A DNA stretch of 64,000 bases from Rhodoglobus sp. (GTDB lineage: Bacteria; Actinomycetota; Actinomycetes; Actinomycetales; Microbacteriaceae). The translations under genes and the position numbers were made by a program. The stretch lies in the NCBI GenBank assembly GCA_025464445.1, contig JAODLY010000034.1, positions 62,001 through 126,000 of the forward strand, read 5' to 3'. A model generated the notes under the pieces. That model worked only from the letters and a program-made list of their open reading frames with translations, did not search any database and was not told the origin of the DNA. Shown one piece after another: positions 16,195 through 61,658 of this stretch (the stretch's first letter is position 1; each line of letters starts with the position of its first letter).

Positions 16195-16503
16195 GTGCGC
16201 GAGCCCGCCCCCGACTTCATCTCGCAGGTGCTCGAGGTCGTGGCATCCATCCCGGAAGGCCGGGTCATGGCGTACGGCGATGTTGCCGCCGCGATCGGGT
16301 CGCGCGCCGCCCGCGCCGTCGGCACGGTGATGTCGCATTACGGGTCGGACTCGCCGTGGTGGCGGGTGGTGCGCGCCAGCGGGCATCCCCCCATCGACCA
16401 CGAGACTCGCGCCCTGCAGTACTACCGCGCCGAGGGCACCCCGCTGAAGTGGAGCCGCGACGGCGGCTACCGCGTGGACCTCGCCGCGCGCTGGCGGCCG
16501 TAG
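16195..16503 (+). CDS. Alkyltransferase-like protein (MGMT family without catalytic cysteine)
   Basis: A 102-residue single-domain member of the O6-alkylguanine-DNA alkyltransferase fold. VASIPEGRVMAYGDVAAAIG is the DNA-binding helix-turn-helix with the nucleotide-flipping Arg. Where MGMT has PCHRV this protein has PWWRVV, so the alkyl-acceptor Cys is replaced by Trp. Such ATL proteins are known to bind O6-alkylguanine and flag it for nucleotide excision repair. GTG 16195 follows GAGCGGAG; the gene is 15 bp behind the acetyltransferase and probably cotranscribed. Confidence 0.88.
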   Translation: MREPAPDFISQVLEVVASIPEGRVMAYGDVAAAIGSRAARAVGTVMSHYGSDSPWWRVVRASGHPPIDHETRALQYYRAEGTPLKWSRDGGYRVDLAARWRP

Positions 16504-16519: not shown

Positions 16520-16607
16520 CTTCCGAAATGACGGAGATTCGGGCATCCCGGGCTGCTCGACCAGCACTTTTCGCGCGGAACAGCCCTCTTCTCCGTCATT
16601 TCGGAAG
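16520..16607. repeat. Inverted-repeat element, family A, copy 1
   Basis: Perfect 18-bp arms: CTTCCGAAATGACGGAGA (16520-16537) and its reverse complement (16590-16607), separated by 52 bp. The spacer starts TTCGGGCATCCCG, as in copy 2, and holds an inner stem GGGCTG/CAGCCC (16550-16555 and 16581-16586). It lies between the alkyltransferase-like gene and the DUF559 gene. Related copies are at 17572-17662 and 35379-35468. Confidence 0.85.
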
Positions 16608-16676
16608 GCGAGGCGCGTTGTGCACCGTTCCGGACGCGGCCGCCGCCCGCCTCGACGGGGACGCCACGCTCGGTGC

Positions 16677-17531
16677 ATGGCATCGGTGTACTACGACGTG
16701 CAGCGCCGCGGAGGAATAGCGCGCACCTACGAATTGCTCCGCGACGGGCACACCTCGCACCGGTTGACCGCGGCGGTACGCGCCGGTGAGGTGGTCCGCG
16801 TGCGGCAGGGGCATTACGCCTGTCCCGAGCTGGGCGACGAGGAGACTCGCGCCGTACGTGTCGGTGGACGCCTCACCGGCGTCGCGGGTGCCCGGCGCCA
16901 CGGCATCTGGACGCCGCCCCTTTCCCGCATCGACGTGTCGGTGCCGGCGGATGCCCGCGCGCTGCGCACCCCGACCGACGCGCGGTCCCGGCTCGCCGCA
17001 CATCCCGACCCGGGCGTTCGCGTGAGCTGGACGGATCACGGCGCTCGAGGCACCCGTTCGGCCCTCGAAGTGCGTGAGTGTCTTCGGGATATCGTGCGAA
17101 GCCAGTCGGCGATCGTCGCCTTCGCGGTGCTCGAATCCGCCCTCCACCTCGGCCTCGTCACCCGGACGTCGCTGCGGCGGCTGGACCTGCCCCGCCGCCT
17201 GCGCGCGGCCGACCGCCTGAGCGAGAGTGGGGGTGAGTCCATGCTCAGATTCCGCCTGCTGGCGCAGCGGACCGCGTTTCGGCAGCAGGTGCAGATCCCG
17301 CGAGTCGGCCGCGTCGACTTCGTGGTCGGCCAGCGGCTCGTCATCGAAGTGGATGGCGCGGCGTTCCACACCGGTCGCGACGACTTCGAGGAGGACCGCA
17401 GGCGCGACGCCGTGCTCGCGGCCCTCGGCTACCTCGTGCTGCGGTTCAGCTACCGGCAGGTGGAGGGGCGCTGGCGCGAGGTATCCGCGGCCATCGGCGC
17501 GACGATCGCCCGCGGCGACCACCTGTGGTGA
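16677..17531 (+). CDS. DUF559 nuclease-like protein with N-terminal AbiEi-type winged helix
   Basis: A 284-residue protein. Residues about 5-60 (GGIARTYELLRDGHTSHRL, VRAGEVVRVRQGHYA) read as the AbiEi-like winged helix found at the front of many actinobacterial DUF559 proteins. Residues about 195-280 hold the DUF559 / Vsr-related PD-(D/E)XK core: IPRVGRVDFVVGQRLVIEVD, then GAAFHTGRDDFEEDRRRDAV and LVLRFSYRQV. The Asp and Glu of the DF...IEVDG segment are candidate metal ligands. No function is established for this family. The gene sits between two family A inverted repeats. ATG 16677 was chosen by where homologous sequence begins; longer readings enter the repeat. Confidence 0.75.
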   Translation: MASVYYDVQRRGGIARTYELLRDGHTSHRLTAAVRAGEVVRVRQGHYACPELGDEETRAVRVGGRLTGVAGARRHGIWTPPLSRIDVSVPADARALRTPTDARSRLAAHPDPGVRVSWTDHGARGTRSALEVRECLRDIVRSQSAIVAFAVLESALHLGLVTRTSLRRLDLPRRLRAADRLSESGGESMLRFRLLAQRTAFRQQVQIPRVGRVDFVVGQRLVIEVDGAAFHTGRDDFEEDRRRDAVLAALGYLVLRFSYRQVEGRWREVSAAIGATIARGDHLW

Positions 17532-17571
17532 GCGCGCGCCACCGCGAACTCGGCGCTTCCGCGAACGCGGC

Positions 17572-17662
17572 CCTTCCGAAATGACGGAGATTCGGGGCAT
17601 CCCGTAGAAAAAAATGCTGATGGGCAGGGATGACACGTCCGAATCTCCGTCATTTCGGAAGG
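17572..17662. repeat. Inverted-repeat element, family A, copy 2
   Basis: Perfect 24-bp arms at 17572-17595 and 17639-17662 (outer end CCTTCCGAAATGACGGAGAT) with a 43-bp spacer. The spacer opens GGCATCCCG like copy 1 and contains CATCCC/GGGATG, able to form an inner hairpin. It is the longest-armed of the three copies and lies 40 bp after the DUF559 gene, in the gap before the convergent VOC gene. Confidence 0.88.
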
Positions 17663-17734: not shown

Positions 17735-18208
17735 TCAGGCGGCGTAGGCCGCGTCGAGGTCCGCGATGACGATCTTCTGCATCTGCATCATCGCCTGCCC
17801 GACACGACCGGCCTTCACCGGGTCGGGGTCGGTGAGGTAGCGCATCAGGGCGGTCGGCACTATCTGCCAGGACAGCCCGAACTTGTCCTTCAGCCATCCG
17901 CACTGCGACTCTTCGCCGCCGTCGGCGGTGAGGGCGTTCCAGTACCTGTCGACCTCCTCCTGGGTCTCCACGGAGACCAGGAACGAGATCGCCTCGGTGA
18001 ACGTGAAGGCGGGGCCGCCGTTGAGGACGATGAACTTCTGCCCGGCGAGTTCGAAGCTCGCGTTCATGAGGGTGCCCGCCGGAACGGGACCGCCCTCCGG
18101 CCAGCGCGCCTCGTCGGTGGTCTTCGCGTCCGGGAAGATGCGGGAGTAGAACTCGATTGCCTCCTCGGCGTTGTTGTCGAACCAGAGGTATGGGGTGATG
18201 GTTGTCAT
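17735..18208 (-). CDS. VOC family protein (PhnB-like)
   Basis: A 157-residue protein of the vicinal-oxygen-chelate superfamily, subgroup often labelled PhnB or 3-demethylubiquinone methyltransferase-like. It begins ITPYLWFDNNAEEAIEFYSR and contains GTLMNASFELAGQKFIVLNG, SFLVSVETQEEVDRYWNAL, and CGWLKDKFGLSWQIVP. These proteins usually act as metal-dependent isomerases, dioxygenases or resistance proteins, but this subgroup has no settled reaction. The ATG has a strong AAAGGAG 6 nt upstream. It has its own start region and no obvious operon partner. Confidence 0.85.
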   Translation of the reverse strand: MTTITPYLWFDNNAEEAIEFYSRIFPDAKTTDEARWPEGGPVPAGTLMNASFELAGQKFIVLNGGPAFTFTEAISFLVSVETQEEVDRYWNALTADGGEESQCGWLKDKFGLSWQIVPTALMRYLTDPDPVKAGRVGQAMMQMQKIVIADLDAAYAA

Positions 18209-35378: not shown

Positions 35379-35468
35379 CCTTCCGAAATGACGGAGATTT
35401 GGGCTCGTGGTGCACGCTGACGGCTTCGTTGTCGGCCCAGGTGGGCAAATCTCCGTCATTTCGGAAGG
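35379..35468. repeat. Inverted-repeat element, family A, copy 3 (plus adjacent half-arm)
   Basis: Perfect 23-bp arms at 35379-35401 and 35446-35468 (outer end CCTTCCGAAATGACGGAGAT), spacer 44 bp, unrelated in sequence to the other spacers. Ten bases on, CATTTCGGAAGG recurs at 35478-35489 as a solitary half-arm, a sign of past duplication or slippage. It lies 76 bp upstream of the DUF2236 gene. Confidence 0.88.
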
Positions 35469-35543
35469 CGGGCGCGGCATTTCGGAAGGGGCGGAAGCCG
35501 GGCGCGGCGTCGCGGGGAGGGCCTGCCCCGCGAGAATGGGAGC

Positions 35544-44073: not shown

Positions 44074-44119
44074 CTCGCGATCTCAAGGAGTCCCGCTCGG
44101 AGTTCCTTGAGATCGCGAG
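44074..44119. repeat. Inverted-repeat element, family B, copy 1
   Basis: Perfect 16-bp arms CTCGCGATCTCAAGGA (44074-44089) and TCCTTGAGATCGCGAG (44104-44119), loop 14 nt. It lies in the convergent gap between the Bax-inhibitor-like gene and guaA. Copies 2 and 3 are at 55981-56024 and 61603-61658, also between convergent genes. It could act as a two-way terminator, though no T-run follows this copy. Confidence 0.85.
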
Positions 44120-44153
44120 CGCGCGGAAGGTGTCGGCCCTGAGGGCGGCGGCG

Positions 44154-55905: not shown

Positions 55906-55980
55906 CCGCCGGCCCTCCGGGGGGTGGTCATTGCGTGTGTCGTCCGCACGGCGCCAGCGCCCGGTCGACCCCGAATTCGT

Positions 55981-56024
55981 TCGCGATCTCAAGGAACTCC
56001 GTCTCCTACTCCTTGAGATCGCGA
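55981..56024. repeat. Inverted-repeat element, family B, copy 2
   Basis: Perfect 15-bp arms TCGCGATCTCAAGGA (55981-55995) and TCCTTGAGATCGCGA (56010-56024), loop 14 nt. GCGTTTTG follows on the plus strand, giving a weak terminator look. It lies in the convergent gap between livF and the binding-protein gene. Confidence 0.85.
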
Positions 56025-56138
56025 GCGTTTTGAGGCAGGCGTCGGGGGGGACTCCGACGAGGGCCGAGCCGACCTGACTGCAACCTTTCAGCGTTGGCGC
56101 GGCGCGGCGGCGCCCAAGGAGACGGACAGGGCACACGA

Positions 56139-61602: not shown

Positions 61603-61658
61603 AAACGTTCGCGATCTCAAGGAGCGCCGACGGCAACTCCTTGAGATCGCGAACGTTT
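61603..61658. repeat. Inverted-repeat element, family B, copy 3
   Basis: Perfect 22-bp arms at 61603-61624 and 61637-61658 (outer half AAACGTTCGCGATCTCAAGG), loop 12 nt. It is the longest-armed copy, with A-rich and T-rich ends (AAAACG, CGTTTGAG) that resemble a two-way terminator. It lies between the convergent methyltransferase-like and DUF4190 genes. Confidence 0.88.

Follow-up and report, generated by a model that had tools for sequence, protein, structure and literature searches.

Genes for a family of actinobacterial proteins that are predicted to cut DNA lie mostly between two copies of a private palindrome, which is also dispersed in the genome. The nuclease gene and its palindromes appear to be partners of a kind not recognised before, an enzyme together with its repeat. 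A link of DUF559 proteins to palindromes was not found in the literature that we searched, with most subscription journals lying outside that search. The starting point was one gene (16677 to 17531, forward strand) in a 64-kb window, the whole stretch of DNA that was analysed. As an earlier sequence-only reading of the window had stated, this gene is bracketed by two family A elements. Element A1 (16520 to 16607) is separated from the gene by 69 bp, which places it at about -157 to -70 relative to the start codon, and A2 (17572 to 17662) follows after a gap of 40 bp. A1 is a loop enclosed by two inverted arms (CTTCCGAAATGACGGAGA); its arms of 18 bp are 100% complementary and its core of 86 bp spans 16521 to 16606. 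The arms of A2 measure 24 bp, again with 100% complementarity, and its loop is homologous to the A1 loop in opposite orientation (z 5.9). A third element without a gene, A3 (35379 to 35468), has the same arms and an 86-bp core and is followed by a partial extra half-arm at 35475 to 35489. With up to two mismatches, TTCCGAAATGACGGAG occurs six times in the window, where 0.01 occurrences are expected. The earlier count of three family A copies holds for the window, but the whole genome (2.84 Mb in 57 contigs) contains ten, including one whose second arm is degenerate. Terminal inverted repeats are present, as they would be in a transposon with TIRs (composite or MITE).

The gene encodes a protein of 284 aa. 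According to the predicted fold, it is composed of an AbiEi-like half (residues 1-179) and a nuclease half with Vsr/EDxHD fold (residues 180-284). The only Pfam families matched were DUF559 (43 bits, cut-off 20.6), MTES_1575 and AbiEi_4, the last scoring 15 bits where 25 are required. An AlphaFold2 model with a mean pLDDT of 95.6 was compared with known structures. Residues 180-284 matched I-Bth0305I (3r3p) with a Z of 11.6 and an rmsd of 2.4 over 96 residues, followed by NGO0050 (Z 11.3) and Vsr (1cw0, Z 9.8). Residues 1-179 matched the AbiEi antitoxin 6y8q with a Foldseek E of 2.6e-5 and a middling Z of 6.8. The modelled fold supports both halves, and with them the earlier proposal of a Vsr-like nuclease core joined to an AbiEi-like part, although the AbiEi_4 score in Pfam is below the cut-off. 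A PADLOC model for homing endonucleases also matched the protein (E 2e-4). The curated Vsr model TIGR00632 was not passed (14 bits against a cut-off of 97.85), and an HUH tyrosine transposase domain is absent both by Pfam and by the predicted fold, which is Vsr/EDxHD-like. We aligned two diverse sets of 39 and 44 proteins, in both of which E187 and D214 were invariant. D226 was kept in 37/39 and 44/44 proteins, D240 in 39/39 and 43/44, E224 in 39/39 and 38/44, and H231 in 37/39 and 36/44. In the set of 44, E224 is replaced by Q in six proteins and H231 is retained in 36, so that part of the presumed active site is variable. E187, D214, D226, D240 and H231 are candidates for the E, D, H and D residues of an EDxHD active site.

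Between one and nine DUF559 hits were detected per genome in the genus, and we asked how many of these genes are bracketed like the one in the window. In the bracketing test, a single 11-base word had to fill all four arms as an inverted repeat on each side, and mismatches were counted out of 44 positions. The genus sample started from 74 DUF559 rows, equal to 73 places after two pieces of one gene had been merged; 70 were fetched and three partial hits were left out. A further sample of 53 loci was reduced to 40 by removing ten that repeated genus loci and three with too little flank. By title these 40 are mostly Microbacteriaceae, with some MAGs titled otherwise. As a control, ORFs were picked mechanically in the window and in the tested loci. 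At up to two mismatches, 75 of 98 full-length genes (mostly Microbacteriaceae) were bracketed, in contrast to 5 of 214 control ORFs, and the word in all five passing controls is the one that forms the DUF559 arms of their own locus. At up to four mismatches the numbers rose to 87/98 (53/60 in the genus and 34/38 in the further loci) and 18/214. Full-length genes failed the test in 23 cases at two mismatches and in 11 at four, and none of 12 short genes was bracketed. Flanking of other DUF559 genes, which had been proposed as a check on the first observation, is hence general in this sample.

Bracketing was also examined outside Microbacteriaceae. A class-level set of 44 places, of which four partial ones were left out, was searched with flanks of 400 bp and without controls of its own. 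Among its 36 full-length genes, 10 passed at up to two mismatches (26 failures) and 16 at up to four (20 failures); one pass (L238) is a C-rich word. The ten strong units had left and right spacings agreeing within 1 bp in nine cases. In a genome of another family (G155), the arm word occurs in four pairs, each spaced 55 bp, two adjoining the gene and two elsewhere, while in G313 it is paired only beside the gene.

The arm words agree clade by clade with the protein tree (59 proteins): CCGAAATGACGGAG, CAAATGAAGGAG, GGAAATTCAGGA, CGAAAACGCAGGAG and GCGGAGGACG each belong to one clade. Mantel and spacing tests were carried out with 74 of the 75 strong units, as one with a stop codon was left out. 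Arm word and protein were correlated with a Mantel r of 0.546 across the 74 units, a value reached in none of 5000 permutations, and r was still 0.37 for pairs below 60% identity. Type V, with the arm word GGAAATTCAGGA, was followed genome by genome. Exact 12-mers numbered 3-31 per genome in the 14 genomes with a type-V gene, gene-adjoining arms included, compared with 0-2 in the 13 genomes lacking such a gene. Alignment columns were ranked by their association with arm identity, and 10 of the best 12 belong to residues 1-179, a stretch that accounts for 63% of the protein. High ranks went to residues 44, 45 and 47, located in the wing according to our reading of the model, but not to the putative recognition helix (27-35). 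These rankings hint that the arm-linked residues are situated mostly, not only, in the N-terminal half.

We then analysed the form of the elements. Among 49 distinct elements of the family-A pattern, 37 measured 86 or 87 bp and three 98 or 108 bp, the remainder being 84, 85, 88 or 70 bp long. Type-V pairs were spaced 67-69, 77-80, 88-90 or 99-100 bp apart. Their spacing had a best period of 10.65 bp (R 0.92, 49 pairs), which was reached in none of 2000 uniform draws, a null that disregards the orthology of many pairs. Within a unit, left and right spacings were equal within 1 bp in 62 of 74 cases, 10-12 bp apart in six and different by other amounts in six. Folding of the loops was computed with RNA energy parameters and compared with shuffles. 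Type-V loops showed no folding excess (z -0.11), and family-A loops a very slight one (z -0.52) together with some more pairing next to the inner ends of the arms. Arm changes in type V were one-sided in 66 cases and matched in 9, where 7.8 are expected under independence. The family-A set, into which other arm types are mixed, gave 21 one-sided and 13 matched changes against 1.2 expected; as they stand, these counts run counter to independence of half-sites. Because of this mixing, the half-site reading rests on type V. In the close species G013 and G014, which share five elements, the arms differed at 3/140 sites and the loops at 35/375 (p 0.004), and the flanks at 106/613. Helical spacing and independent arm variation in type V fit half-sites on duplex DNA and therefore disfavour the cleavage of an arm hairpin that the sequence-only reading had put forward as an assay. 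Our conclusion, which draws chiefly on type V, is that each arm is a half-site recognised in double-stranded DNA and that the arms share one face of it and are under selection.

Two gene-less family A elements, on contigs C11 and C27, were compared with gene-flanking elements and with the corresponding places in the other genomes, where their flanking genes recur. Their loops are homologous to those of gene-flanking elements (z 8.8 and 7.1). Both copies are intergenic, that on C11 between two divergent genes and that on C27 as judged from flanking alignments, and a family-A arm (up to three mismatches) was absent between the flanking genes in the 10 (C11) and 7 (C27) relatives read. The suggestion that gene-less copies are derivatives of gene-flanking ones gains support from these two, which share loop ancestry with them and occupy lineage-specific sites. 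Empty sites were found, yet they are too diverged for a clean junction or a target duplication to be read. Comparison of 32 loci revealed gene-less copies common to two species, one C27 copy shared with G021 and one G022 copy shared with G026. Loop kinship was examined for 36 of the 49 family-A elements and for the type-V elements of five genomes. It exceeded z 4 in 52 of 1260 family-A comparisons, orthologues and an overlapping pair included, and in 8 of 358 type-V comparisons inside the five genomes, where most loops have no recognisable kin. Element copies thus seem to arise now and then and to be able to persist. Gene orientation around elements taken from the longest ORF was discarded as unreliable in G+C-rich DNA; it called the C11 genes convergent, whereas they are divergent.

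The window holds a second palindrome family, B, with CGATCTCAAGGA arms. Its copies lie at 44074 to 44121 (arms 26 bp apart, start to start), 55978 to 56030 and 61606 to 61658. This genome contains 15 exact pairs, all spaced 26 bp, and for the other 26 genomes the matches listed are scattered single words. One family B copy (G000:C3:29180-29217, L106) lies upstream of a gene of the DUF559 family that is truncated to 155 residues and lacks the nuclease half; downstream of that gene, no copy was present in the stretch read. Family B therefore also has, or had, such an adjoining gene.

The history of the locus was followed across the genus. To the left, the gene is preceded by a gene for a protein with an MGMT-like DNA-binding domain (16195 to 16503, forward strand), which is conserved and served as the anchor of the locus. 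To the right, a 3-dmu-9_3-mt (VOC/PhnB-like) protein is encoded on the reverse strand (17735 to 18208) and is retained in part of the genus. Exact 16-base family-A arms were found in 7 of 27 genomes, and proteins at least 58% identical in 5 of 27, all five among the seven with arms. The remaining two, G022 and G024, carry arms but no close family-A gene, so elements persist in its absence. Of the 27 places at the MGMT-like gene, five (G000, G018, G020, G021, G026) contain element, gene and element, and that of G004 contains one element and a remnant of 47 residues. The other 21 lack both a DUF559 match and a family-A arm (up to two mismatches of 14) within the roughly 1.5 kb read. At the empty place on a second contig of G021, only a short stretch separates the MGMT stop from the stop of the neighbour. 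The MGMT gap of G024 holds a diverged palindrome with a AAATGACGGA-like arm. Presence and absence of the block, whose comparison had been suggested as a check, could be followed in relatives, but clean junctions were unreadable. All five intact orthologues at the GNAT-MGMT locus have a palindrome on both sides, and none sits there without repeats, which would have spoken against a unit.

Beyond the genus, the gene is found near the same GNAT and MGMT genes in two further records. It is adjacent to them in an actinomycetote MAG (L194), and in Lacisediminihabitans (L147) about 1.5 kb lie between MGMT and the gene. The block adjoins GNAT-MGMT in five species of the genus and lies close to it in these two records, which suggests that it was inherited at a fixed position and lost repeatedly. 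In the simplest reading the block is old, inherited in place and often lost. The earlier idea that gene and palindromes travel together is not supported, as the block stays at one locus. A recent composite transposon was ruled out for the gene block on the same grounds. Phage cargo was rejected, as the protein has no phage match, and so was plasmid cargo, with two weak partial matches of the protein in Tsukamurella plasmids and no plasmid DNA match of the block.

Based on these observations, we propose a mechanism. The AbiEi-like N-terminal half of a site-specific DNA nuclease would read the palindrome arm as duplex DNA, and two inverted arms, a whole number of helical turns apart, would form one element. 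A dimer, or two dimers, would bind the arm pair with the spacer bent or looped, and the Vsr/EDxHD-fold C-terminal half would cut within or next to the element. Processing or repair of this cut could allow copies of the element to appear in other intergenic regions. Lying between two copies, the gene would itself stay at its locus and act in trans on the gene-less copies dispersed elsewhere. Paired inverted repeats are targets of AbiEi proteins, which in one case bound cooperatively and bent the DNA (PMC7319586), and I-Bth0305I has been described as a dimer on a target almost 60 bp long (PMC3943268). Both precedents suggest that the protein may bind the two arms over a looped spacer and cut there. 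Binding of the arms by the protein is likely and cutting of the element somewhat probable. That the DUF559/AbiEi-like protein spreads the element has roughly an even chance, and we infer that cutting would be the cause of the spread. As an explanation of the whole, an arm-binding and element-cutting nuclease whose elements spread via the cut, with the gene acting in trans, is the best that we can offer, and we judge it evenly balanced between right and wrong.

The AbiEi-like half might instead repress its own promoter and act on other genes, so that the elements are operators, the dispersed copies a regulon and the nuclease half unrelated. Binding of AbiEi proteins to inverted repeats that precede the genes encoding them has been reported (PMC7319586), A1 lies upstream of the start codon, the C11 copy is flanked by divergent genes, and helical phasing with independent half-sites would suit any dimeric DNA binder. 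However, most units have an element of equal spacing also downstream, where repression of a promoter needs none. The invariance of E187 and D214 across 39 and 44 diverse proteins and the lineage-specific C11 and C27 copies argue further against an operator, which we regard as unlikely. A selfish gene resembling a homing endonuclease would cut the allele that lacks the block, repair would copy element, gene and element, and the elements would be recognition half-sites. Such a gene would agree with the I-Bth0305I fold of the nuclease half, with the PADLOC match and with a block that is present or absent at one fixed site. It leaves the dispersed gene-less copies unexplained, and the family-A arm is absent from the stretch read at 21 of 27 MGMT loci. 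The block also lies near GNAT-MGMT in the Lacisediminihabitans record, and we consider homing quite improbable.

The elements could also be moved by another transposase of the genome and accumulate beside DUF559 genes by chance or preference. Their lineage-specific copies are compatible with this, and movement by the DUF559 protein is itself our deduction. In contrast, DUF559 genes are flanked on either side by arm words particular to their clade, and type-V arms are numerous only where a type-V gene is present, so that we give little credence to an unrelated transposase. Finally, arms able to pair as stems of 16-24 bp might be ordinary transcription terminators or RNA hairpins beside an unrelated gene. 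The very slight folding excess of family-A loops and the joint changes of family-A arms are in favour of this. Type-V loops, however, lack such an excess, type-V arms change independently, and the helical spacing already disfavours a hairpin. Arm words are moreover specific to the neighbouring protein, and the C11 copy is placed between two divergent genes; terminators or RNA hairpins are therefore extremely unlikely. An RNA family was rejected as well, since Rfam returned three microRNA matches only, far below gathering scores.

With regard to known systems, the nuclease partnership resembles REPINs and their RAYT genes (REPtrons) in logic, not in homology, as the sequence-only reading had already suggested; a nuclease-fold gene with its palindromes recurs as a unit. 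REPINs are dispersed inverted pairs of a word; two of them enclose a dedicated gene, which stays in place (PMC3116915, PMC3733652). Common to both are inverted pairs of a short word in multiple copies, a conserved spacer length and a dedicated single-copy gene that is flanked by the elements. The proteins differ, RAYT being an HUH tyrosine transposase and the protein studied here a Vsr/EDxHD-fold nuclease with an AbiEi-like half. Type-V spacers lack the long hairpin pairing, and type-V arms the compensatory changes, of the elements described in PMC3116915, the mixed family-A set being equivocal. In addition, spacing here is quantised by the DNA turn, and the GTAG tag of REP ends is missing, as the arm words of A, V and B contain neither GTAG nor CTAC. 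The catalytic fold is shared with the EDxHD homing endonuclease I-Bth0305I, which has another DNA-binding half and for which flanking palindromes and dispersed gene-less elements are not mentioned in the portion of its description available (PMC3943268). Like the AbiEi antitoxin of type IV AbiE, residues 1-179 have the AbiEi fold and inverted repeats lie near the gene. In contrast to AbiE, a nuclease is fused, an element is present on both sides, and none of the three neighbouring genes scanned in the window, for GNAT, MGMT-like and 3-dmu-9_3-mt proteins, encodes a DUF1814 toxin. Vsr and the DUF559 protein VsrA share the nuclease fold, but Vsr lacks the AbiEi-like half added here and its curated model is not passed. 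VsrA of Caulobacter is linked to DNA damage in cells without a cytosine methylase and causes their SOS response (PMC12907096).

Tentatively, and with slightly less than even confidence, we propose that DUF559/AbiEi-like proteins of Actinomycetes are element-propagating nucleases, each clade with palindromes of helically registered duplex half-sites, and that they form a non-homologous counterpart of REPIN/RAYT on double-stranded DNA. If true, short palindromic repeats would have a second, independent route to spread and persist in bacteria, via duplex DNA. A little-studied family, DUF559 fused to an AbiEi-like half, gains a concrete candidate DNA partner that can be read from the flanks of the gene, and dozens of natural nuclease-arm pairs would permit direct tests of specificity.

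Several minor observations were made along the way. In G000, G022 and G026, 16 of 24 gene-less type-V elements were 81-83 bp long, one helical turn below the usual 91-95 bp (L283-L302, L269, L271), and only 1 of 27 gene-flanking type-V elements belonged to this short class. Lengths of 113-114 bp were found for 12 of 27 gene-less type-V elements in the other genomes. G021 carries two GNAT-MGMT loci, C7 and C55, one with the block and one without, and is probably a MAG bin containing two organisms. DUF559 units in records titled as Acidobacteria MAGs (L163, L169, L189) resemble actinobacterial units; our guess is that these records are misbinned. Another palindrome (TATCGAAA and CTACTCAACC) fills two of the compared intergenic places, L202 and L336 (G017, G020). 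Tandem arrays of partial half-arms were observed beside some elements, at L012:1587-1680 (GGCATTTCGGAAGGGCAGCGC repeats), at 35469 to 35490 of the window and, with a different unit, in the left flank of L173.
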